NCBI GenBank assembly: GCA_009837395.1 | Contig: VXTP01000006.1 | Span: forward strand, 62,001-126,000 | Source of the DNA: Gemmatimonadota bacterium | GTDB taxonomy: Bacteria > JAAXHH01 | Length of the DNA stretch: 64,000 nt | Reading direction: 5' to 3' | Shown: positions 1,921-63,882 of the stretch, one piece after another | Layout of the letters: every line of letters begins with the position of its first letter | Position numbering within the stretch: the first letter of the stretch is position 1 | Notes under the pieces: model-generated | What the model was told of the DNA's origin: nothing | Seen by the model: the letters and a program-made list of their open reading frames with translations, nothing else | Databases searched by the model: none | Translations under genes and position numbers: made by a program

Positions 1921-2019
1921 GCGCCAGCGCGCTCATGCCCCGGCAACGGACGGGCGCCAACGGGCTCATGCCCCGGCAACGGACGGGCGCCAACGGGCTC
2001 ATGCCCCGGCAACGGACGG
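1921..2019. repeat. 33-bp tandem repeat x3 spanning the amidase stop codon
   Basis: Three adjoining copies at 1921-1953, 1954-1986 and 1987-2019. Copies 2 and 3 are identical; copy 1 differs at two bases. The stop codon of the amidase (1999-2001) lies inside copy 3, so the last residues of the amidase are encoded by repeat sequence and two more copies lie downstream of the stop. Confidence 0.95.
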
Positions 2020-3420
2020 TCGCTTCTTCCAGGTCCCGGTCGCCTGTTCGAAGGCGTGGGCGAGTTGAAGGACGCCGAGTTCGTCCTCGTGCCGGCCGAC
2101 GATCTGCAGTCCCACGGGCAGGCCCGAAGAAGTGAATCCGCAGGGCACGGAGATGGCGGGCAGCCCGGTGACGGTGACGTAGTAGCACGACTTCATCCAG
2201 TCGATGTAGGTCTCCATCTGCACGCCGTCGATTTCCGTGGGGTAAGGCGTATTCACGTCGAAGGGCGGGACCTGGCTGACGGGGAAGACCATGAAGTCGT
2301 GGTGTTCCATGAACCGGCGGACCCGGTGGTACAGGGTGGTGCGGTCCACCTCCGCGCGGGCGACCTGCGGACCCGTAAGGGCCAAACCGGCTTCGAGGTT
2401 CCAGATAACCGTGTCCTTGATCTGGTCGCGGTGCGTCTCGAGGAGGTCGCCGTATCCCTGGATGAAACTCCACGCCCGCAGCGTCTTGAAAACCTCGTCG
2501 GCCTCGGAGAAATCGGGCTGGCCCGGCTTGACGGTCATGCCGAGATCCTCGAATACGCCGCGCTTCGCCTCGATGGCCGAGACGACTTCGGGATCCACGG
2601 GCAGCCCGCCGAAGTCCATGCTCCAGGCGACGTTTACCCCCTTGAAGTCGCGTTCAAGCGGCATGGCGAAGGGCTGTCCCGGCTCCCGGATGGCCAGCGG
2701 CGCCCGGGGATCGGGTCCGGCGATGGCGCTGAGCATGAGCGCGGCGTCCGCCACCGTCCGGGCCATGGGACCCTGGACGCTGAGCCTGCCCCAGGCGTTG
2801 ACGGACGGCCACCGCGGCACGCGTCCCGGTGCGGACCGCAGCCCCACCACGTTGCAGAAGTTGGCCGGGTTGCGCAGCGAACCGCCCATGTCGCTCCCGT
2901 CGGCGATGGGCAGCATGCCGCAGGCCAGCGCCACGGCGGCGCCACCGCTGCTTCCGCCGCAGGTCCGGGTCGTGTCGTAGGGATTCAGCGTCGCGCCGAA
3001 AACCGGGTTGAAGGTCTGGGAACCCGCGCCGAATTCCGGCACGTTGGTCTTGCCGAAGGAGATCGCCCCTGCCTTTTTCAACCGCTCCACGATCAGCTCG
3101 TCCTGGCCCGGGACGAAATCGCGAAAGATCGGCGAACCGTAAGTCGTCCGCACGCCTTTGGTCAGCACCAGGTCCTTGTGGGCGATGGGCAGGCCGAAGA
3201 GGGGTCCCCGCGCTTCGTTTCGCGCGATGGCCTCGTCGGCCTTACGGGCGCCGTCCAGCGCCTGGTCGGGATGGTAGGTGACGATGGCGTTCACGGCAGG
3301 ATTCACCCGATCGACCTGGGCCAGGTGGGCCTCCATGACCTCCGTCACGCACAAGTCCTTGCGGCGGATCATGCGGACCAGATCGGTCGCCGGGGTGAAG
3401 CACAGTTCGGACGGGGACAT
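1999..3420 (-). CDS. Amidase, amidase-signature family
   Basis: A 473-residue amidase. The catalytic Ser-cisSer-Lys triad is visible: the Lys in LPIAHKDLV (about residue 82), the cis-Ser in the glycine-rich GGSSGGAAVAL, and the nucleophile region DMGGSLRNPA. The family hydrolyses carboxamides and includes GatA, urea amidolyase and 6-aminohexanoate hydrolases. No gatB or gatC lies beside it, so a free amidase acting on small amides is more likely than the tRNA amidotransferase subunit. The start ATG follows GAAAGGCGCGCG and lies 10 bases after the HisC-like gene, so the two are probably co-transcribed. The 3' end lies inside a 33-bp tandem repeat, which supplies the final residues. Confidence 0.88.
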   Translation of the reverse strand: MSPSELCFTPATDLVRMIRRKDLCVTEVMEAHLAQVDRVNPAVNAIVTYHPDQALDGARKADEAIARNEARGPLFGLPIAHKDLVLTKGVRTTYGSPIFRDFVPGQDELIVERLKKAGAISFGKTNVPEFGAGSQTFNPVFGATLNPYDTTRTCGGSSGGAAVALACGMLPIADGSDMGGSLRNPANFCNVVGLRSAPGRVPRWPSVNAWGRLSVQGPMARTVADAALMLSAIAGPDPRAPLAIREPGQPFAMPLERDFKGVNVAWSMDFGGLPVDPEVVSAIEAKRGVFEDLGMTVKPGQPDFSEADEVFKTLRAWSFIQGYGDLLETHRDQIKDTVIWNLEAGLALTGPQVARAEVDRTTLYHRVRRFMEHHDFMVFPVSQVPPFDVNTPYPTEIDGVQMETYIDWMKSCYYVTVTGLPAISVPCGFTSSGLPVGLQIVGRHEDELGVLQLAHAFEQATGTWKKRPSVAGA

Positions 3421-3430
3421 CGCGCGCCTT

Positions 3431-4510
3431 TCAGCTAAGGATCTCTCGCAGGGCCCGGACGAAAATCCGGCTCTCTTCCTCGTTTCCGTAGGAGACCCGG
3501 ATCATGCCCTTTATTCCCCAGGTAGCCTCCGCGTCCTTGACGTAGACACCACGCTCGGCCAGGGAGGCGGTCACGGCGGCGGCGTCTCCCACGGCGATCA
3601 GGACGAAGGCCGCCTCGCTGTGGATATACTCGAGTCCGAGTTCTTCACAGGCCCCGTAGTAGATCGCCTTGGACGCGCTCGCCGCGTTCCGGGTGCGTAT
3701 TACGTGATCCGGGTCATCGAGGGCGGCGATGGCCGCGGTCAGGACCATGGCGCTGGGCGATCCACCGTGAAACGCGCGGACATGCTTCATCGTTCGAGGC
3801 TGGGCTACGCCATAACCGAAGCGAAATCCCGCAAGGCCGTAACCCTTCGAAAAGGTGCGGACCACCAGGACGTTATCGAATTCCCGTGCGAGCCCGGCGC
3901 CATCGGCGCAGGCCTGATCCTCCGATAGGTCCGCGTAGGCTTCGTCCACCAGGACCATCACCCGTTCCGGCAGGCCGGCGACGAAGCGTGCCAGCGCGTC
4001 GTGGGTGACGATGGTACCCGTGGGATTGTTCGGATTGGTGATGACGGCCACGCGGGTCCGCTCGTTGACGGCCGCGGACATGGCATCCAGGTCGTAGACG
4101 AAATCGGCCGTCAGAGGCGTCCGCACGGCACGGGCCCCCGATTCTTCCGCGAACCGGGACATCAACCCGAAGGATGGATGGGGTTCAATGAGTTCGTCTC
4201 CCGGTACAAGAAAAGCACGGGCCACGGCGTGCATCAGATGTTCGGAGCCGTCGCCCACACGGATCCAGGCGCCGTCCGAATCAGCCCCGGGTAGGGCGAG
4301 CTTCTCATCGTGGGGTACGCCGTGCAGTTCGGCCAGTTTGCGGAAGAGGGCGATCTGGTCGGGGTCCTCGTACCGGTTGATCCGGGCGCACCGCGCCTTG
4401 ACGGCTTCGATGACGGACGGGGAAGGCCCGATAGGGTTCTCGTTCCGGCTCAGGCGGATGATGCCGGGAGGAAGACCGATGCTTCGATAGGCTTCGTTGT
4501 CCGTGCTCAT
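3431..4510 (-). CDS. HisC-like class I/II PLP aminotransferase
   Basis: A 359-residue fold-type I aminotransferase of the histidinol-phosphate aminotransferase group. It has the N-terminal RLSRNENPIGPSP block, TNPNNPTG for the PLP phosphate and pyridine contacts, VDEAYADL, and the Schiff-base lysine in RTFSKGYGLAGFRFGYG. Length is normal for HisC. In histidine synthesis the enzyme converts imidazole-acetol phosphate to histidinol phosphate. hisB sits three genes upstream in the same run, but the genes between them (transporter, aldolase-like enzyme) are catabolic in character, so a role with another amino acid is equally possible. Unlike its two relatives at 57.6-60.1 kb it has no Tat signal, so it is cytoplasmic. 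There is no strong ribosome site before the ATG. Confidence 0.8.
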   Translation of the reverse strand: MSTDNEAYRSIGLPPGIIRLSRNENPIGPSPSVIEAVKARCARINRYEDPDQIALFRKLAELHGVPHDEKLALPGADSDGAWIRVGDGSEHLMHAVARAFLVPGDELIEPHPSFGLMSRFAEESGARAVRTPLTADFVYDLDAMSAAVNERTRVAVITNPNNPTGTIVTHDALARFVAGLPERVMVLVDEAYADLSEDQACADGAGLAREFDNVLVVRTFSKGYGLAGFRFGYGVAQPRTMKHVRAFHGGSPSAMVLTAAIAALDDPDHVIRTRNAASASKAIYYGACEELGLEYIHSEAAFVLIAVGDAAAVTASLAERGVYVKDAEATWGIKGMIRVSYGNEEESRIFVRALREILS

Positions 4511-4545: not shown

Positions 4546-6090
4546 TCATTTCCAGTTCTTCGAAACACGTCGAACCTGGAACACGCCCACCAGGATCAGC
4601 GCCACGATGATTCCGCGCGTTATCAGCAGATAGGGGATGTCCACCGGGTCGACGTTGCGCAGCAGGAGAATGTCGAAACCGGCCTGATAGGTCCACACGA
4701 CCAGCAGGATCGCCAGCGAGGCCGGCGTGACGTACTTGATCATGTAGTAGAATATCCGCGGTATCCGGATGGCCGCGCCTTCGTTGATCTCCTCCCAGGC
4801 CTTGTCCATGCCGAAGATCCAGGCGAAGATGATGATCTCGAAGAAGGAGAAGACCACCAGGCCCACGGTCCCGATCCAGAAATCCAGCTCGTTGATGACG
4901 CCGTGCTCGATATTGAAGACGATGAAGTTGCCGAAGAGGAACAGGCAGGAGATGACGAATATCGCGGCCTTCTTGCGCGGCCACCCCATTTCATCCTGCA
5001 GGAAGGCCATGGGCGGCTGCGTCAGGGCCACCGTCGAGGTAATCCCCGCGAAAAACAGCAGGCCGAACCACAGCGTGCCGATGAACTGGCCCAGGGGCAG
5101 CTGCTGGAAGATCAGGGGCATGGACTGGAACCCAAGGTCGTACGCGCCGCCCGTCGCGATCGCCTCGGTGGCGGTGACGCCGAAGAAGGCCACGGCGACC
5201 GGGATCGCGATGGAGCTGCCGAGTACCACCTCGGCGAAGCCGTTGCTCATGGAAGTGGTCAGGCCGGTGAGGGCGACGTCCTGGCGGGCGCGGACGTAAC
5301 TCGCGTAGCACTGCATGCTGCCGATGCCGATGCCGAGGGAGAAGAAGATCTGTCCCGCGGCCGCGAGCCACACGCCGCCTTCGGTAAGACGGCTGAGGTC
5401 CGGGTTCCAGATCCAGGCGAAACCGGCCATGACGCTGCGATCGGGAAAGGCCGGGTCGGGGGTCCCGAGCGTCAGGACCCGGGCAACCAGCACGATGGCA
5501 AAGATCAACAGCATGGGCATGGCGAACTTGGCCAGGGTCTCGATGCCCCGTACCACGCCCCGGCTCAGCACCCAGAAGACGATGCCCAGGTTGATGAGAA
5601 AGAAGATGTAGGCGGTGGCGACACTGCTGAAGTAGGCACTTTCGGTGACGCCCTGGAAACTGCTCAGGAACGCGCCCATCTCCGCCTGTGAGGAGATACC
5701 GAAGTACTGGCCGGTCAGGGAAAAGAAGCTGTAGGCCAGGGTCCACGACTGCACGTAGGAATAGTACAGGGCGAAGGCGACCGGCGCCGCGATGCCGAGT
5801 ACGCCGATGTACTTGGCGGCCGGGTGTTTCCACAGCCGGTACAGGATGCCCGGCGTGGTGCCGTGGCCGTGTTTCCCGCCGAACCGTCCCACGCTCCATT
5901 CCACCCACATCATGGGGATGCCCACAACCAGGAAGGCAATGAAATAGGGGATCATGAAGGCGCCGCCGCCGTTGGCGGCCGCCTGCACGGGAAACCGCAG
6001 GAAATTACCCAGGCCGATGGCATTGCCCGCCATGGCCATGATCAGCCCCAGGCGGCTCTTCCAGACTTCCCTTACTCCATTAATGGACAT
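4546..6090 (-). CDS. Sodium-dependent transporter, NSS (SNF) family
   Basis: A 514-residue integral membrane protein with about 12 hydrophobic segments. The first segment carries GNAIGLGNFLRFP, the unwound TM1 sodium/substrate site of LeuT-like neurotransmitter:sodium symporters, followed by the conserved VEWSVGRFGG loop. Such bacterial proteins import amino acids or related amines with sodium across the inner membrane. The start ATG follows GGAAGGAGTAACGG, a strong ribosome site that directly abuts a 19-bp tandem repeat. It lies between a D-threonine-aldolase-like gene and an aminotransferase, so it probably supplies their substrate. Exact specificity cannot be told. Confidence 0.9.
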   Translation of the reverse strand: MSINGVREVWKSRLGLIMAMAGNAIGLGNFLRFPVQAAANGGGAFMIPYFIAFLVVGIPMMWVEWSVGRFGGKHGHGTTPGILYRLWKHPAAKYIGVLGIAAPVAFALYYSYVQSWTLAYSFFSLTGQYFGISSQAEMGAFLSSFQGVTESAYFSSVATAYIFFLINLGIVFWVLSRGVVRGIETLAKFAMPMLLIFAIVLVARVLTLGTPDPAFPDRSVMAGFAWIWNPDLSRLTEGGVWLAAAGQIFFSLGIGIGSMQCYASYVRARQDVALTGLTTSMSNGFAEVVLGSSIAIPVAVAFFGVTATEAIATGGAYDLGFQSMPLIFQQLPLGQFIGTLWFGLLFFAGITSTVALTQPPMAFLQDEMGWPRKKAAIFVISCLFLFGNFIVFNIEHGVINELDFWIGTVGLVVFSFFEIIIFAWIFGMDKAWEEINEGAAIRIPRIFYYMIKYVTPASLAILLVVWTYQAGFDILLLRNVDPVDIPYLLITRGIIVALILVGVFQVRRVSKNWK

Positions 6091-6101
6091 CCGTTACTCC
6101 T

Positions 6102-6158
6102 TCCAGACGGACTGTGTTTATCCAGACTTACAGTGTTTGTCCAGACGGACCGTGTTTA
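6102..6158. repeat. 19-bp tandem repeat x3 filling the gap between two genes
   Basis: Units at 6102-6120, 6121-6139 and 6140-6158 (plus-strand unit like TCCAGACGGACTGTGTTTA). The outer units differ at one base; the middle one differs at several. On the coding (minus) strand the first unit supplies the TAA stop of the aldolase-like gene (6156-6158) and the last unit ends directly at the ribosome site of the transporter gene. Confidence 0.93.
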
Positions 6159-7199
6159 CTTGACCCGGCCCCGGCCGGCCACCGGCCAGATGACTTCCAC
6201 CTGGTCGCCCCGGACGCCGTTGAGCTCGTCATGCAGGTTGAGGGCCATCTCCTGGTGCAGGGGGATGACCGACACGCGCTCGCCCACCTTGAACCGGTGT
6301 GCGCAGCGGGACACGTCCACGTGGCCGTGCTCCACGGACATGCCGTAGATCTGCGCCTCGGGATGTTCGATGATATGGCCGTAGGGCGTGGGCGGATAGC
6401 TGGCAAAAGTCTTCATCCCGCCGTCGATGATGATGCGGTCCGGCGTCGGTGCGCTCACCACGGTGCAGATCATGCGGCAGGGGCAGCGTTCGGGGTCGAG
6501 CATGGCGGAAGTGCTGAGACGCTCCATGCCCTCCCAGATGTAGGAACCGCTGCGTGTCTCGGTGCAGCCCATGGCTTTGGAGTTTTCTTCGCCGCCGGTG
6601 CCGCCACCGCTGATGATCTCGACGGGGATGCCCTTCCCGGTGATCCGTTCTATCGTTTCCGCCAGGAAATCCCTGGCCTCGGGATGGCTTGGGAAGATCA
6701 TGACGCCTTTGAAAACGAGGCCACGCAGGTCCGTGATACGTTCGGCCAGGGCCGCCGCCGCTTCGGGCGACTGCACGCCGCAACGTTGCGTGCCTGTATC
6801 CAGCTCGATGATCACGTTGACCCGGCAGCCGTCCTTTTCGGCCTGGTCCGAAATGCCCCGTGCTGTGATCTCGTCATCGACGGCCACGATGATCTTGGTC
6901 CGCTTGGCGACACGCGTCAGGCGTTCCACCTTGCGGGGACCGACGATGTTGTAGGGGATCAGGATGTTCTCGATGCCGGCGGCGGCCATGACTTCGGCCT
7001 CGCCGAGTTTCTGGCAACAGATGCCGATCGCTCCGGCCTTGATCTGCCAGTGGGCGATTTCCGGGATTTTATGGCTCTTGGTATGGCATCGAAGGCCAAT
7101 GTCGAGATTCCGGCAGTGCTGCGCCATGGACGCGATGTTACGCTCCATCAGGTCCAGGTCGGCCACGTAGGCCGGAGTGTCCAGCTCGTCGATGTGCAT
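6156..7199 (-). CDS. D-threonine aldolase / D-serine dehydratase-like PLP enzyme (DSD1 family)
   Basis: A 347-residue protein of the alanine-racemase-like fold III PLP group. The N-terminal DTPAYVADLDLMERNI block and the PLP lysine in CHTKSHKIP are characteristic, as is the C-terminal metal-binding part with EHGHVDV, SRCAHRF and VSVIPLHQE, where a His and Cys hold the divalent metal in D-threonine aldolase and D-serine dehydratase. The family cleaves D-threonine, D-beta-hydroxy amino acids or 3-hydroxy-D-aspartate to glycine plus an aldehyde, or dehydrates D-serine. It lies 24 bases after hisB and is followed by a sodium amino-acid symporter, so it likely acts on an imported D- or hydroxy-amino acid. 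Its stop codon is part of a 19-bp tandem repeat. Confidence 0.83.
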   Translation of the reverse strand: MHIDELDTPAYVADLDLMERNIASMAQHCRNLDIGLRCHTKSHKIPEIAHWQIKAGAIGICCQKLGEAEVMAAAGIENILIPYNIVGPRKVERLTRVAKRTKIIVAVDDEITARGISDQAEKDGCRVNVIIELDTGTQRCGVQSPEAAAALAERITDLRGLVFKGVMIFPSHPEARDFLAETIERITGKGIPVEIISGGGTGGEENSKAMGCTETRSGSYIWEGMERLSTSAMLDPERCPCRMICTVVSAPTPDRIIIDGGMKTFASYPPTPYGHIIEHPEAQIYGMSVEHGHVDVSRCAHRFKVGERVSVIPLHQEMALNLHDELNGVRGDQVEVIWPVAGRGRVK

Positions 7200-7223: not shown

Positions 7224-7811
7224 CTAGAGGCTGCCCTTGGTGGACGGCACGCCGGATACCCGTTCGTCCATGGCCACGGCCTGGCGCAGCGCCCTGGCCG
7301 CCGCCTTGAAGACCGCCTCGACCTGGTGATGGGCGTTCACGCCGGAGAGCAGGGCGACGTGCAGGGTGACGCGCCCGTGATGCACAAGGGCTCCGAAGAA
7401 CTCCCGCACCATTTCCGTGCTGAAATCGCCGACCGAGGAGCGCGAGAAGTCAGCGTCGAATTCCAGGTGGGCGCGGCCGCTTACGTCGAAGACGGCCCGC
7501 GCCAGCGCTTCGTCCAGGGGTGCGTAGGCGTGGCCGAATCGCGTAATGCCCGATCCGTCGCCGATCGCCCGGGCGACGGCCTGGCCCAGGCAGATTCCCA
7601 CATCTTCCACCGTGTGATGATCGTCAATGTGTAAATCGCCGGTGCAGGCAAGGTCGAGGTCGAACCCGCCGTGCTTGACGAAGCTGCCCAGCATGTGGTC
7701 GAAAAACCCTATGCCGGTTTCTCCGGAGAGTCTTCCTTCACCCTCGAGGGTTAGGGTCAGTTCGATGCGGGTTTCCAGGGTTTCGCGCGTAACCGTGGCA
7801 GTGCGGGGCAC
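7224..7811 (-). CDS. hisB: Imidazoleglycerol-phosphate dehydratase
   Basis: A 195-residue stand-alone HisB, the sixth-step enzyme of histidine synthesis. Manganese-binding motifs are plain: GIGFFDHMLGSFVKHG, DLHIDDHHTVEDVGI and, near the end, GVNAHHQVEAVFKAAARAL. Length is normal for the monofunctional form without the phosphatase domain. It uses a GTG start (7811-7809) preceded by TGAGGAATAC. No other clear his genes adjoin except a HisC-like gene three positions downstream, so the pathway appears dispersed here. The last residues (PSTKGSL) match the usual C-terminus of the family. Confidence 0.96.
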   Translation of the reverse strand: MPRTATVTRETLETRIELTLTLEGEGRLSGETGIGFFDHMLGSFVKHGGFDLDLACTGDLHIDDHHTVEDVGICLGQAVARAIGDGSGITRFGHAYAPLDEALARAVFDVSGRAHLEFDADFSRSSVGDFSTEMVREFFGALVHHGRVTLHVALLSGVNAHHQVEAVFKAAARALRQAVAMDERVSGVPSTKGSL

Positions 7812-57312: not shown

Positions 57313-57610
57313 AAGCGAAACGGTTGGGCGGACCGGATTGACCGGCCTGACTGGTCCGACCGGCCCGACCGGCCCGACCCACCCACCGACACGATTCTGA
57401 ATACCGGGCGCTCCGAAGTTGTATAACTTTAACAATACCTTTGTCATTTCATGCGTTGCGTATTAGATTGACCGATCATCGGATACGGATTTCAGGGATC
57501 GTAACTGATGAGGCTGCGCCTCCACAGGGCGTCACGCACGCATTTTGCCAGGTTGAAAACAAAGGCCTGCAGAGCAATTCTTAGCAGAACTTTCCTTCAA
57601 GGAGTTTATC
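57313..57610. other. Intergenic region with GACCGGCC repeats
   Basis: About 298 bases. From 57326 to 57385 it is filled with short imperfect copies of a GACCGGCCT/C word (9-10 bases), directly downstream of the glycosyltransferase stop. The rest becomes AT-rich (TTGTATAACTTTAACAATACC near 57419) and probably holds the promoter of the Tat aminotransferases. No gene is evident. Confidence 0.6.
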
Positions 57611-58825
57611 ATGGTAGACAGGGCGGACAGGATTGCGGAAGCTCCTTCCGGTTTTTCGAGGCGAGGCTTTCTAAGAGGTATGATGGTGGGCGCAGGCGCA
57701 TTATCGCTGAGCAGTTACGAGGCCGTGGCGCAGATGATCTCCGGACCCAACGCGCGACCCGTGCGCGGGTGGGGCGTGCCCGAAGGTCTCGTGCGCCTGA
57801 GTGGAAACGAAATGCCGATCGGCCCATCGCCCCGCGCGGTTGAAGCGGTCCTGGAGAATGTGTATTCCTTCAACCGTTACAACCGGAACAGGGACATCTA
57901 CGCCAGGATCGCCGAGCGGCACGGGCTGCCCGTGGTGGAGTGGGCGCCCAATTCCTTCACGCCGCCCGGTGCCTGGGTCACCCTTGGCTGCGGATCTTCG
58001 GAGGTGCTGTACGCCGTCGCTTCCGCCTATCTCCGGGACGGGGCTGAAATGGTCGAGGCCACGCCAGGCTACGCCGGCGTATTTCGTGTCGCGGAACCCA
58101 ATGGTGGCACGGTGAAGTGGGTCCCCCTGACCACCGGCTTCCAGCAGGACCTCGATGCGATGAAGGCCGCCATATCCGAAAAGACCAGGGTGGTGGTCAT
58201 CACGAACCCGGGCAACCCGACCGGCGTGCTCGTCCCCTCGGATGCCGTAAAGAAGTTCGTCCAGGAGGTCCCGTCCGACGTGATCGTCTTCGTGGACGAG
58301 GCCTACATCGAGTTCTCGAAGAACCCCGAAGACCGGATTGGCGCTGCACCGCTGATCCTGGACCATGAAAACGTGATCGTGGCCCGTACGTTCTCGAAGA
58401 TCATGGGCATGGCGGGACTCGGCGTCGGCTACGGCCTGGCGCGCCCCGAAGTCATCGAGAAGCTGAACCAGAACAAGGGCGGACGGCCCAGCATGCTTTC
58501 GACCAACGCCGCGGCGGCCGGCATGGAGGACCATGACTACCAGGACCGCGCGCGGAAGGTGACCTGGGAAGGCCAGGAGTATTTCGCCAGCAATTTCGAC
58601 GAAATGGGCATCGAGTACGTACCCAGCCAGTCCAGTTTCATGCTGATCAACGTGCATAAGGATGCCGATGAAGTCGTCCGCAAGCTGAGGGAAGAATACA
58701 ACGTGATGGTCGGCAACGGCAAGCGCCGCTGGGAAATGGATACCTGGCTGCGGGTCACCTCCGGCCTGATGGAAGAGAACGAGGCCTTCATGGCAGCGCT
58801 GAGGAAGGTGCTGGTAAGCAGTTGA
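57611..58825 (+). CDS. Tat-exported HisC-like PLP aminotransferase (first of pair)
   Basis: A 404-residue protein. The N-terminus is a twin-arginine signal (FSRRGFLRG, Arg17-Arg18, a hydrophobic stretch, and an AVA cleavage site after residue 40), so the protein should be folded with its cofactor and exported to the periplasm. The mature part is a complete HisC-like aminotransferase: RLSGNEMPIGPSP (NExPxGxSP), TNPGNPTG, VDEAYIEF (Asp229) and the PLP Lys263 in ARTFSKIMGMAGL, then KRRWEMDTWLRVT. No catalytic loss is seen. The ATG follows AAGGAGTTTATC (line 57598-57609). About 44 bases separate it from the similar gene that follows. Substrate unknown; histidine synthesis makes no sense outside the cytoplasm. 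Confidence 0.85.
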   Translation: MVDRADRIAEAPSGFSRRGFLRGMMVGAGALSLSSYEAVAQMISGPNARPVRGWGVPEGLVRLSGNEMPIGPSPRAVEAVLENVYSFNRYNRNRDIYARIAERHGLPVVEWAPNSFTPPGAWVTLGCGSSEVLYAVASAYLRDGAEMVEATPGYAGVFRVAEPNGGTVKWVPLTTGFQQDLDAMKAAISEKTRVVVITNPGNPTGVLVPSDAVKKFVQEVPSDVIVFVDEAYIEFSKNPEDRIGAAPLILDHENVIVARTFSKIMGMAGLGVGYGLARPEVIEKLNQNKGGRPSMLSTNAAAAGMEDHDYQDRARKVTWEGQEYFASNFDEMGIEYVPSQSSFMLINVHKDADEVVRKLREEYNVMVGNGKRRWEMDTWLRVTSGLMEENEAFMAALRKVLVSS

Positions 58826-58869
58826 TCGTACGTACGATCGATTCGAGCACCTGATCAAAGGACGGTGTT

Positions 58870-60084
58870 ATGTCGAACATGTTAAAGGCGATGAACCTGG
58901 CGGCTCCCGGGTTCACGAGGCGCAAGTTCCTCAAGGGGCTTGCGGTGGGCGCCGGGGTGGCTTCGCTGGGCAGTTACGAAGCCGCGGCGCAGATGGTGGC
59001 GGGACCCCGCGCAAGGCCCGTGCGGGGCTGGGGCGTACCCGAAGGATTAATCCGGCTGAGCAGCAACGAGAACCCGATCGGTCCGTCGCCCCGCGCCGTC
59101 GAGGCGATCATGCAGTACGTCTACAAGTTCAACCGGTATTACCGGGGCCGCGGACTCTACGGCCAGATCGCGGAACGCCACGGGCTGCCGGTCGTCATAC
59201 CCTCGAACAACAACGAAGACCGGGCCGAGCCCTGGGTGACCCTCGGGTGCGGGTCATCGGAAGTGCTCTTCGCCATCGCCTCGGCCTACCTGCGCGACGG
59301 CGGCCAGATGATCGAGGCCGCGCCCGGATACGGAGGCGTGGTCCGTACGGCCCGGAGTTACGGCGCCCGGGCGCGCCTTGTCCGCACGACGCCGGATTTC
59401 CACCAGGATCTCGATGCCATGAAGGCAGCCATCACCGAGGACACGCGCGTCGTCGTCATCACGTCTCCGGGTAATCCGACGGGCATCATCGCGCCCTTCG
59501 ACGACCTCAAGAAGTTCGTCAGCGACATCCCTTCCGACGTCATGGTATTCGTCGACGAGGCCTATATCGAGTTCGCCCGGAACCCGCAGGACCGCATCGG
59601 CGCCGCACCGCTCATCCTGGATCACGAGAACGTCATCGTAACCCGTACCTTCTCGAAGATCATGGGTATGGCGGGCCTGCGCATCGGATACGGCCTAGCC
59701 CGGCCCCATGTCATCGAGAAGCTCGAAGACAACAAGGGCGGGCGGGTCAGTTCGCTCTCCGTGGTCGCCGCGGAGGCCTGCATAGAGGATCAGGACTACC
59801 AGGACCGTGCGAGAGCGGCGGCCTGGGCCGGGCATGACTATCTCACCGGCCAGTTCGAGGAGATGGGACTCGAGTACGTGCCCAGCCAGTCCAGCTTCAT
59901 GCTGGTGAACGTGCGCACGGACGCCGACGAGGTCACCCGGAAGTTGTTCGAAGAGTACAACGTGCTCGTGGGCAACGGCAAGCGCCGCTGGCGGATGAAC
60001 AACTGGCTACGCGTCACCGCGGGCCTGCAGGCAGAGAACGAGGCCTTCATCGCCGCGTTGAAGAAGGTCCTGGTCAGCAGTTGA
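58870..60084 (+). CDS. Tat-exported HisC-like PLP aminotransferase (second of pair)
   Basis: A 404-residue relative of the gene before it, roughly two thirds identical, of exactly equal length. It keeps a Tat signal (FTRRKFLKG, Arg17-Arg18, with an AAA site after residue 40) and the aminotransferase active site: RLSSNENPIGPSP, TSPGNPTG, VDEAYIEF and Lys263 in TRTFSKIMGMAGLRIGYG. The substrate-binding region differs (residues 108-120, PSNNNEDRAE versus WAPNSFTPPG), which suggests a different substrate rather than a spare copy. Both end in KKVLVSS/RKVLVSS. Probably co-transcribed with the first. Confidence 0.85.
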   Translation: MSNMLKAMNLAAPGFTRRKFLKGLAVGAGVASLGSYEAAAQMVAGPRARPVRGWGVPEGLIRLSSNENPIGPSPRAVEAIMQYVYKFNRYYRGRGLYGQIAERHGLPVVIPSNNNEDRAEPWVTLGCGSSEVLFAIASAYLRDGGQMIEAAPGYGGVVRTARSYGARARLVRTTPDFHQDLDAMKAAITEDTRVVVITSPGNPTGIIAPFDDLKKFVSDIPSDVMVFVDEAYIEFARNPQDRIGAAPLILDHENVIVTRTFSKIMGMAGLRIGYGLARPHVIEKLEDNKGGRVSSLSVVAAEACIEDQDYQDRARAAAWAGHDYLTGQFEEMGLEYVPSQSSFMLVNVRTDADEVTRKLFEEYNVLVGNGKRRWRMNNWLRVTAGLQAENEAFIAALKKVLVSS

Positions 60085-60309: not shown

Positions 60310-63300
60310 TTAACGGGTGCGGACAGGGCGCGATGCCGCGCCTTGAAGGAGGGTGTTGAGCATCTCGGAGGCCTTCTTCTTCACCCTGAGCACCGAGCGG
60401 TGCTTGACCTGCTCGTACCCGCGGATCTCGTCGGGCAGTCCCAACAGTTCCGATACTTCGGGGTAGTTTTCCGGGGTGAGTATGGCAAGGGCCTGGTCCA
60501 GCAGGGATTCGTACCAGGTTACGAGCGCACGTTCCTCCCGCCGGGCCGCGGTGTAACCGAAGGGGTCGAAGGGCGTTCCCCGAAGGAATCTGCAATGGGC
60601 CATGATCCGCAGAATGGGCCTGAACCAGGGTCCCAGCCGCAGCTTGCGATCGAGTCCCCATGCCCGCAGCAGCGGCGGATGCAGATGGTAGGATACCCGG
60701 ACCGGTCCATCGAACCGTTCCGCTACGCCCGGTTCGGACGGATCGGTCAGCAGCCGGGCCACCTCGTACTCGTCCTTGTAGGCCATGAGCTTGTGCAACA
60801 TGAAAGCCGCGTGCGTGGTGAGCAGGTATCCGCGGTCCGGTCCGCCGGTACGCTCATCCCTTTCGTAAACCCCTACGATCCGGTCGACGAACCGCTCTGC
60901 GAGCCTGGCGTCCTGAAAGGCGATCAGCTCGCCCACGCGGATGACCCAGCTCCTGCGGAACGACTCCTGGCGGACGGGAATCCTTCCGATCAGCGTCTCG
61001 AAGGCCTGCGCCCGCTTACGGCCGAGTAACAACGCATAGCGGCGGACCAGTTCATCCGAATCCGGCTCGGGTTCCTCCACGGCCCCGTCCAACCGCGCCC
61101 GGTCGTGCACGGCCATGCGGCCCCATCGGAAGGCCTGGATGTTCAGGTCGACGGCCTGGCCGTTCAACCGGACGGCGCGCTCGATACTCCCGGCCTGCAG
61201 GGGGATGTGCCCGGCCTGGTAGGCGACGCCGAGGAGAAACACGTTGGCCACGATGTGGTTCCCGAAGAGCTTCATCGCGTAGTCCTGCGCATCGATGAAG
61301 ACATTGTCCACCGACCGGGTGTGTGCTTCGATGAGCGTTTCCATGGCCGGGACGTCGGCGCCGGGTACCTGGGGATCGTACACCATCTGCGCGGTCGGGA
61401 CGCCGGACCGGCTCACCACGGCTACGGTCCGCTGCGCGGAGGCGGCCTGGAGGTTCAGGGGGTTCACCGCGCCTGCGATATCCGCCGCCAGGTAGAGATC
61501 GCACCGCCCGGCGGGTATATAGCTGGAAGGGGGGACCTCGCCTTCCCCCAGGACGATGGGCGATTCCACGGGACCGCCCTTCTGCGCCAGCCCCGTGCGG
61601 TTCATCTCGCTCACCTTCTTCCCGTCGAAAAGCGCCGCGACAGCCAGCAGGTGGGCCACGGTCACGACGCCCGTGCCGCCGATCCCGATGAGGTGTATCG
61701 CGTATTCTCCGTCTATCGTCGCTTGGGCGGCGGGTGCTGCAAGGTCCGATTCATCCAGAGTCGGGCACACCGGATTCAATGGCTTGCTGTCTCCGACCGG
61801 TTCGACGGAGATGAAGGAAGGGCAGTCTCCCTTCAGGCAGGACAAGTCCTGGTTGCAGGCCGACTGGAGTATGGCGGTCTTGGGTCCGAACTCCGTTTCC
61901 CTGGGTTCGAGCGCGAGGCACATGGACTGCTGACCACAGTCGCCGCATCCTTCGCACACCCGTTCGTGAATGTAGACGTACCGTTCGGGGGCGAGATGCT
62001 GGCGCTTGCGGCGACGTCGGTGTTCCGTGGCGCATTCCTGGTCGTAGATCAGCACCTTCACGCCGGGTTTTCGCGACAGGCTCTCCTGGGCGGATTCGAG
62101 CCGGTCCCGCGGTTCGAGCAGCAGGTGCTGGCCCGGTTTCAACGCGGCCCGGGCGCGTTTGAGCGATACCTGCTGCGGAAACTTGCTGACGACCGTCACA
62201 TCCTGCACGCCCAGGCCGAGCAGAATCAGCGCGAAGTCGTCCAGCGTGGGCTGCCCGGTGATGTCCTGGCCGCCGGTCATGGCCACCACGTGGTTCCAGA
62301 GTACTTTATAGGTGATGTTAGCGCCGTGGGAAATGGAGCTGAATATGGTGATCAGGCCGCTGTGGAGCACCGTGCCGTCGCCGATGTTCTGGAACAGGTG
62401 CCGGTTCTCATTGAACGGAAACATGCCGTTGTAGATAGCGCCGCCCAGACCCATGGTGGGTATCCAACGCACGCCCCGGCCGTCCGCCTCGATGTAGGCA
62501 TCCAGCGACGAGCAGCCGATTTCGCCGCCCGCGACTTCGCCCTCCGGCGCACGGGCCGATACGCTGTGGGGACATCCTGGACAGTAGTGGGCGGTGCGCC
62601 GGGCGAAGGAACCCGGATCTCGCTCAGCGATGGCGCTTAACTCCTCCAAGCGGTCGTAAATGGGCGCCGACGGGAAGATCTCCTGCAGCATCGGTCCGAG
62701 TCGCAGGGTGAGCAGGTCTGGATTCAGCTCTCCATAGGCTGGAATGAGCGGGCGGTCATCCGGACCCCGCTTTCCGTAGACGTGTGCTACGCCGGTGCCC
62801 AGGAGCGCGTGGGCTACCGCTTCTTCCACGAAGGGACCCTTTTCCTCCACGACCACCACGGTCTTCAGGCGCGCTGCGAACTCCCGGATCGTCCGTGGAT
62901 TGACCGGATAGATCACGCCCAGCTTCAGGATCGGCACCCGGTCCTCCAGGTTCAGCAATCGAAGCGCCTGGACGATGTCGGCGTAGCTTTTTCCCGTGGC
63001 CACGATACCGAGGGAACCGTCCGATTTCGGGTTCTTGACCGTGTCGATTCCGTTCACCCGGGCGTACTCGGCGGCGATCCCCAGGCGCACCGTGGTCAGT
63101 TCTTCTTCGAAGGGGATGGACTGGGTGGAGATGACCACCCGGTGAAAGCGTTTTTCGTAGGGCCGTCCAGGCGGCAGCGTCACGCTGGGTAGTTCGAGGT
63201 TTACGTCTACCGTTTCGGCGCCGTCGCAGATGGGCGTGACGAGTTTCATCCCGCAGAGGACCCCGGCGTACCTGCTGAGCGCGAGCGCGTGGTGCCCATA

Positions 63301-63882
63301 GGTGATGACCTCGGAAACCGTCGAAGGGTAGAAGACGGGAATGCGCGCGTCGCGAAGGGCCTGCTCGCTGCTGGCGGGGTATCCGGAACTCTTCGCCATG
63401 TGGTCGTCCCCGCAGAACAGGACGCCGCCGCTGTCCTTTCCCGTTCCCGCGATGTTGGCGAGGCTGAATTCGTCCAGGGCCCATTTCACGCCGTGGGCCT
63501 TTCCGTACCAGAATCCGTCCACGTTTCCTTCGTACTGACTGCCGTGCACCGCCGCCGCCGCCGTCTTCTCGTTGACTGCCGCCTGGTGAACGAAAGGCGC
63601 CGCTTCACTGAGCAGGGCGGCCTGATGCCGGAGTTCGAGGTCGAGGCCGCCGAGGGGCGAGCCTTCGTAACCGGCCATGAAGCTGCGTCGCACCGTGCCG
63701 CCGGAAAGGGCGTCACGCCGCTGCTTGTCCAGCAGGAAGCGGACGATGGCATGTATTCCAGTAAGAAAGACCGGACCGCTGTCTTTGAGGTATCGGTCCT
63801 GCAGCGAGGGCGCTGGAATGGCGTCGGTGGTCAAGGCCGGACCTGCCTGGTCGCGAGGCGTTTGAAATCGGGTGTCTTGCAC
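60310..63882 (-). CDS. Indolepyruvate:ferredoxin oxidoreductase, fused single chain
   Basis: An 1190-residue single-chain 2-oxoacid:ferredoxin oxidoreductase. The N-terminal part (about 1-420) is the pyrimidine/TPP-binding half with AGYEGSPLGGLDLEL. The middle holds the CPGCPHS cluster and the TPP-binding GCSSLDAYIEADG and MGLGGAIYNGMFPF. A Cys-rich part (CEGCGDCGQQSMCLAL, then CNQDLSCLKGDCPSF) binds a [4Fe-4S]-type cluster. The gamma-type part begins at IHLIGIGGTGVVTVAHLLA with MNRTGLAQKGGPVESPIVLG. A C-terminal helical domain of about 240 residues completes it. The enzyme takes aryl or branched 2-oxo acids to acyl-CoA plus reduced ferredoxin. Convergent with the Tat aminotransferases. Confidence 0.92.
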   Translation of the reverse strand: MQDTRFQTPRDQAGPALTTDAIPAPSLQDRYLKDSGPVFLTGIHAIVRFLLDKQRRDALSGGTVRRSFMAGYEGSPLGGLDLELRHQAALLSEAAPFVHQAAVNEKTAAAAVHGSQYEGNVDGFWYGKAHGVKWALDEFSLANIAGTGKDSGGVLFCGDDHMAKSSGYPASSEQALRDARIPVFYPSTVSEVITYGHHALALSRYAGVLCGMKLVTPICDGAETVDVNLELPSVTLPPGRPYEKRFHRVVISTQSIPFEEELTTVRLGIAAEYARVNGIDTVKNPKSDGSLGIVATGKSYADIVQALRLLNLEDRVPILKLGVIYPVNPRTIREFAARLKTVVVVEEKGPFVEEAVAHALLGTGVAHVYGKRGPDDRPLIPAYGELNPDLLTLRLGPMLQEIFPSAPIYDRLEELSAIAERDPGSFARRTAHYCPGCPHSVSARAPEGEVAGGEIGCSSLDAYIEADGRGVRWIPTMGLGGAIYNGMFPFNENRHLFQNIGDGTVLHSGLITIFSSISHGANITYKVLWNHVVAMTGGQDITGQPTLDDFALILLGLGVQDVTVVSKFPQQVSLKRARAALKPGQHLLLEPRDRLESAQESLSRKPGVKVLIYDQECATEHRRRRKRQHLAPERYVYIHERVCEGCGDCGQQSMCLALEPRETEFGPKTAILQSACNQDLSCLKGDCPSFISVEPVGDSKPLNPVCPTLDESDLAAPAAQATIDGEYAIHLIGIGGTGVVTVAHLLAVAALFDGKKVSEMNRTGLAQKGGPVESPIVLGEGEVPPSSYIPAGRCDLYLAADIAGAVNPLNLQAASAQRTVAVVSRSGVPTAQMVYDPQVPGADVPAMETLIEAHTRSVDNVFIDAQDYAMKLFGNHIVANVFLLGVAYQAGHIPLQAGSIERAVRLNGQAVDLNIQAFRWGRMAVHDRARLDGAVEEPEPDSDELVRRYALLLGRKRAQAFETLIGRIPVRQESFRRSWVIRVGELIAFQDARLAERFVDRIVGVYERDERTGGPDRGYLLTTHAAFMLHKLMAYKDEYEVARLLTDPSEPGVAERFDGPVRVSYHLHPPLLRAWGLDRKLRLGPWFRPILRIMAHCRFLRGTPFDPFGYTAARREERALVTWYESLLDQALAILTPENYPEVSELLGLPDEIRGYEQVKHRSVLRVKKKASEMLNTLLQGAASRPVRTR

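Follow-up and report, generated by a model that had tools for sequence, protein, structure and literature searches.

Within the window, a 64,000-nucleotide stretch of contig VXTP01000006.1 from a Gemmatimonadota bacterium, two tandem genes (here copy 1, P0001, and copy 2, P0002) probably encode periplasmic transaminases that depend on pyridoxal phosphate (PLP) and are exported by the twin-arginine (Tat) pathway. According to this interpretation, copy 2 is a canonical enzyme, copy 1 a paralogue that has been retained and specialised, and both belong to a lineage-specific expansion. What is new is how large this expansion is and, in one of the two tandem genes, a loss of the PLP-phosphate arginine that is both conserved and selected. 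The features of the region are summarized in Table 1.

Table 1. Features of the tandem pair and of a related gene, in positions of the window.
Feature	Position	Strand	Description
Copy 1 (P0001)	57611..58825	+	Tat-signal HisC-like aminotransferase without the PLP-phosphate Arg, 404 aa
Copy 2 (P0002)	58870..60084	+	Tat-signal HisC-like aminotransferase, PLP site complete, 404 aa
Shine-Dalgarno AAGGAG, copy 1	57599..57604	+	6 nt 5' of ATG; seen in the sequence
Shine-Dalgarno AAAGGA, copy 2	58857..58862	+	7 nt 5' of ATG; seen in the sequence
Tat signal peptide, copy 1	57611..57730	+	Residues 1–40; RR at 57659–57664; predicted cleavage AVA/Q
Tat signal peptide, copy 2	58870..58989	+	Residues 1–40; RR at 58918–58923; predicted cleavage AAA/Q
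Codon 68, copy 1	57812..57814	+	ATG (Met); Asn in all 34 Arg-type relatives
Codon 263, copy 1	58397..58399	+	Catalytic Lys, Schiff base with PLP
Codon 271, copy 1	58421..58423	+	GGC (Gly) replacing the PLP-phosphate Arg; GGC in 12 of 12 genus genomes
Codon 263, copy 2	59656..59658	+	Catalytic Lys
Codon 271, copy 2	59680..59682	+	CGC, PLP-phosphate Arg
HisC-like paralogue	3434..4510	-	Signal-less; related, outside the pair

The two proteins are 70% identical across residues 11–404, and their open reading frames are separated by 44 bp. Both are fold-type I aminotransferases: they match Pfam PF00155 (Aminotran_1_2) with E-values of 3e-45 and 2e-50 (155 and 172 bits against a gathering score of 19.7), and both carry K263, D229, Y232, and N202. 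For both copies, the best NCBIfam matches were NF006580 (PRK09105) and HisC (TIGR01141), followed by PRK03321, PRK05166, and PtaA, all of which scored under their curated cut-offs; NF006580 aligns from residue 14–15 and thus through the twin-arginine region. An AlphaFold model of copy 1 based on a 40-sequence alignment reached a pLDDT of 86 and a pTM of 0.84, with residues 1–47 disordered, whereas a single-sequence run reached a pLDDT of only 44. The solved structures nearest to the model are HisC-like enzymes, with a TMt of 0.88 for 3ly1.

Given these matches, the pair might be read as histidinol-phosphate aminotransferases (HisC) whose N-terminal extension is spurious, and TIGR01141 is indeed among the best profiles for both, with 220.1 and 224.1 bits. 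We consider this highly improbable. Both scores lie under the cut-off of 276.55 bits, while L024, a gene on another contig of the genome, passes it with 319 bits, so that the genome has another gene to serve histidine synthesis; moreover, histidine biosynthesis, including HisC, is cytoplasmic, and the Tat motif of the pair is conserved. Judged by these profile scores, neither copy is a histidinol-phosphate transaminase, and the true HisC is encoded elsewhere.

The Tat export of both proteins, folded and loaded with PLP, is well supported by their sequences. The signals start with GFSRRGFLRG in copy 1 and GFTRRKFLKG in copy 2, sharing the pattern F-S/T-RR-x-FL, and in each the RR motif is followed by a 14-residue glycine-rich uncharged stretch and then an AxA site. 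A TATFIND-like rule was passed by two of the 40 genes called in the window, and these were copies 1 and 2, in agreement with an earlier sequence-only reading that had assigned both proteins a Tat signal with an AxA cleavage site. That reading had also named tat genes in the genome and conserved signals in homologues as checks, and both were found. The same genome has tatC (a TatC match of 212 bits) and two tatA-like genes (matches to TatA/B/E). In an alignment of 40 members, with rows mostly 34–61% identical to copy 1, the signal is invariant at Arg17, Arg18, and Phe20 and varies at most of its other positions, which is the pattern left by selection on a Tat signal. The idea that the Tat route carries the cofactor is strengthened by the conserved signal, the tat genes, and a precedent, since PtaA and PvdN have been shown experimentally to be exported by Tat with PLP bound (PMC6206403). 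When its active-site lysine is mutated, PvdN stalls at or in the membrane (PMC6206403); weak PLP binding could therefore hinder Tat export, and copy 1 may hold PLP poorly.

The pair is one locus among many. Of the HisC-like proteins in the window's genome, nine carry Tat signals and at least four do not, and each of the 16 phylum genomes compared (16 of 16) contains 5–15 close family members, counted at E ≤ 1e-90, with nearly all matches reaching the signal. The named relatives of the window are records labelled Candidatus Latescibacterota or Gemmatimonadetes MAGs, and the lineage is known here from metagenome-assembled genomes only; a study of sponge Latescibacterota mentions neither aminotransferases nor Tat. 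Outside the lineage, the family is mostly single-copy. In the rest of the domain, 23 genomes gave only two matches that extended into the signal region, and the match in G024 had no obvious signal. In another phylum, five of 119 sampled genomes had a match into the signal region, and the three inspected all had RR motifs. The sequence-only reading had regarded the tandem pair itself as unusual, a view that does not survive the nine Tat-signal paralogues and the aminotransferases PtaA, PvdN, and PA2531 that are already known.

Several family members with other features were also encountered. In members from another phylum (L128:1-1801 and L133, in G021 and G039), RRRFL is followed by a cysteine (PACT, PGCS), which suggests that they are Tat-exported lipoproteins. 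At L098:661-1809 in G013, the catalytic lysine aligns with an arginine and a Tat motif was not found; this is possibly a dead copy. Near the signal-less paralogue in the window lie genes named by eye as amidase-like (1999–3420), sodium symporter (4546–6090), D-threonine-aldolase-like (6156–7199), and HisB-like (7224–7811), and the group is possibly an amino-acid catabolic cluster.

The two copies differ at position 271, eight residues past the catalytic Lys263, which is Gly in copy 1 and Arg in copy 2. In the other relatives it is Arg in 33 of 34 and Lys in one of 34, and in the copy-1 types it is always Gly or Ala (Gly, Gly, and Ala in the copy-1 orthologues of three further genera). This position presumably corresponds to Arg240 of Mycobacterium tuberculosis HisC, judging from the spacing and from Arg222 of Escherichia coli HisC and Arg266 of AspAT. 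Arg240 is reported to contact the PLP phosphate, and the residue that matches position 271 in the M. tuberculosis aromatic aminotransferase (mArAT), Arg225 at Lys217 plus eight, is listed as strictly conserved throughout subfamily I-beta, with members from archaea to mammals (PMC4703992). The arginine that marks the PLP region of the subfamily I-beta set is thus present in copy 2 (Arg271) and absent from copy 1 (Gly271). At position 68, the Asn of an NEN motif in 34 of 34 relatives is Met in copy 1. Since codon 271 is GGC in all 12 genus genomes and the orthologues have Gly, Gly, and Ala, a sequencing error is excluded. Copy 1 keeps Lys263, Asp229, Tyr232, Asn202, Ser262, Tyr90, and Arg381. 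A complete PLP active site, which had been claimed for both proteins, is therefore found in copy 2, whereas copy 1 departs from it at Gly271 and Met68; the accompanying claim, that the differences lie in the substrate region and leave the catalytic core untouched, is contradicted by R271G and N68M. A search for a basic residue that could compensate for R271 gave none confined to copy 1; Arg292 is shared with copy 2. R271 has also been lost or replaced in a second related clade without a Tat signal (L102:547-1662, Leu; L111:16885-18015 and L111:10576-11808, Met and Gly), and it is Lys in L110. An apparent Sec-type signal was seen in L111:10576-11808.

The loss of a conserved cofactor residue might indicate that copy 1 is a decaying pseudogene, but this is scarcely credible. 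Within the genus, 12 members have its reading frame intact, as do G012, G013, and G015, its remaining catalytic residues are all kept, and its pairwise dN/dS is 0.069 (12 genomes), a selection pattern that refutes decay. With 0.060 for copy 2 (nine genomes), these values indicate that both copies are functional and under strong purifying selection.

The tandem arrangement is present in 12 of 12 genomes of the genus, where copy 1 is located after genes for a leucyl-tRNA synthetase and a glycosyltransferase. In G013, the location is the same, but the copy-1 type occurs alone. In the window, the space that separates the glycosyltransferase gene from copy 1 has a short CCGGCCTGACC-like low-complexity stretch at 57330–57400. 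Near a PhyH gene in G015, an Arg-less member adjoins an Arg-bearing one; in G012, an Arg-less member lies beside metH, with no close Arg-bearing sister, and in the window's genome an Arg-bearing relative also sits beside metH. In a large tree, copy 2 was nested within the Arg-less clade with support of 100/97. In a smaller tree, however, support for its placement was 84/76 and an AU test did not reject an all-Arg-less clade (p = 0.275), so a single loss of the arginine fits as well as a loss followed by a regain. Gene conversion between the copies was considered and set aside, the nucleotide identity being without a long converted tract.

The neighborhoods did not name a substrate. Those of the other paralogues (MR/MLE enolases, HpcH/HpaI aldolases, a GMC oxidoreductase, PhyH, a peptide ABC transporter, MetH, and an FtsX-like protein) differ and have no common theme, and no conserved neighbor indicating a substrate was found among them. 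The earlier suggestion of peptidoglycan-derived or D-amino-acid substrates likewise found no support in the neighborhood of the pair. Convergent to the pair lies a gene on the reverse strand (60310–63882) for a 1190-aa protein resembling 2-oxoacid:ferredoxin oxidoreductases (POR domain, DUF6537). It is kept in the genus and not in genus g3, and we do not argue for a functional link to the pair, since in G013 a histidine kinase gene is next to the copy-1 orthologue. A non-phosphorylated amino acid, peptide, or natural-product amine is a likelier substrate than histidinol phosphate. Arg292, which is common to both copies and the copy-1 types and absent from the other paralogues, falls, by sequence alignment, in a loop next to the active site of HisC-like enzymes; our guess from this residue is a substrate with an acidic group.

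In the mechanism that we propose, both proteins would acquire their fold and their PLP in the cytoplasm, cross the inner membrane folded via Tat, and transaminate amines outside it by a ping-pong PLP/PMP cycle, as HisC-like enzymes of fold type I, subfamily I-beta. The two genes are presumably co-expressed. Copy 2 would act as an ordinary canonical transaminase. Because of R271G and N68M, copy 1 probably handles its cofactor or its substrate differently: it would hold PLP less firmly, or hold a different state, and could work alone on another substrate or paired with copy 2. In a sharper form of this explanation, the copies would be two independent, fully active homodimeric transaminases with different substrates, in which the loss of the arginine merely loosens PLP and is tolerated as other phosphate contacts remain. 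We take this form seriously while leaning somewhat against it. The remaining active-site residues of copy 1 are intact, and the replacements in L102, L111, and L110 indicate that R271 is not strictly necessary for such genes to be retained; however, R271 is near-universal in the family, and the joint change of two otherwise invariant positions (68 and 271) points to a deeper functional change.

The active sites of fold-type I enzymes lie at the dimer interface, and the paired paralogues LCB1 and LCB2 of serine palmitoyltransferase provide an analogy for an obligate hetero-oligomer, in which copy 2 would contribute a complete PLP site, with copy 1 as a modified or regulatory subunit. The tandem order in all 12 genus genomes favors joint use, G015 also has an Arg-bearing member beside an Arg-less one, and purifying selection is equally strong on both copies. 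Nevertheless, such an obligate assembly is unlikely, since the Arg-less copy is solitary at the G013 locus, G012 is without a close Arg-bearing sister, and copy 1, unlike typical dead partners, retains the catalytic lysine. Distinctly unlikely is a bolder version, a periplasmic hetero-oligomeric PLP enzyme in which the cofactor site of the Arg-less subunit is repurposed, in a lineage running a large, so far undescribed set of extracytoplasmic amine-modifying reactions; such a site might, for example, hold exchangeable PLP/PMP or support a non-transaminase reaction.

The preferred reading, a canonical copy 2 beside a specialised copy 1, matters because only a small number of periplasmic PLP enzymes has been studied, and the supply and retention of PLP outside the cytoplasm are open questions; the published account merely assumes its regeneration there. 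With as many as 15 such enzymes per genome, and with a conserved pair whose members differ at the PLP-phosphate arginine, the lineage offers a natural test of the demands of Tat on PLP proteins, as well as of the purpose of extracytoplasmic transamination.

Among known systems, HisC shares the fold and most active-site residues with the pair, which differs in scoring under the TIGR01141 cut-off and in having Gly368 where the compared HisC proteins have Arg. The alignment there is uncertain: at E. coli Arg322, the arginine that binds the substrate phosphate, ungapped spacing leads to Gly368 in both copies, and a HMMER alignment against 4r2n leads to Arg372. NF006580/PRK09105, described as “pyridoxal phosphate-dependent aminotransferase,” is the best or second-best NCBIfam match of both copies, but they score 216–223 bits against its 444-bit cut-off. 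The closest solved structure by both sequence and fold is 3ly1, a putative HisC-like protein from Pectobacterium (Erwinia) carotovora, which is 27% identical to copy 1 and, in contrast to it, keeps the Arg. A Proteus mirabilis homologue (L091:2995-4149, on a 4-Mb record labelled plasmid) has the RR signal MNRRSFLTSS and 3ly1 as its closest structure; this closeness suggests that 3ly1 might itself be a member of a Tat-exported family.

PvdN, an unusual PLP enzyme, falls into another aminotransferase class. Its likeness to the pair is that of an aminotransferase with a Tat signal proven to work in Pseudomonas aeruginosa (PMC6206403), as is that of PA2531 of the same species, whose Tat signal also works (PMC6085387). 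With the profile of PtaA (periplasmic transaminase A, Pseudomonas; NF051461), copies 1 and 2 score 174.0 and 169.4 bits against a cut-off of 500; residues 16–398 of copy 2 align to profile positions 5–357 with the signal in register, and the best stretch in copy 1 begins at residue 58. To our knowledge, PtaA has no comparable expansion of paralogues. Like the pair, PtaA is a HisC-like fold-type I transaminase with a Tat signal that is exported folded with PLP, but its substrate is the periplasmic glutamate residue of pyoverdine (PMC6206403), and copy 1 differs from it in lacking the PLP-phosphate arginine.
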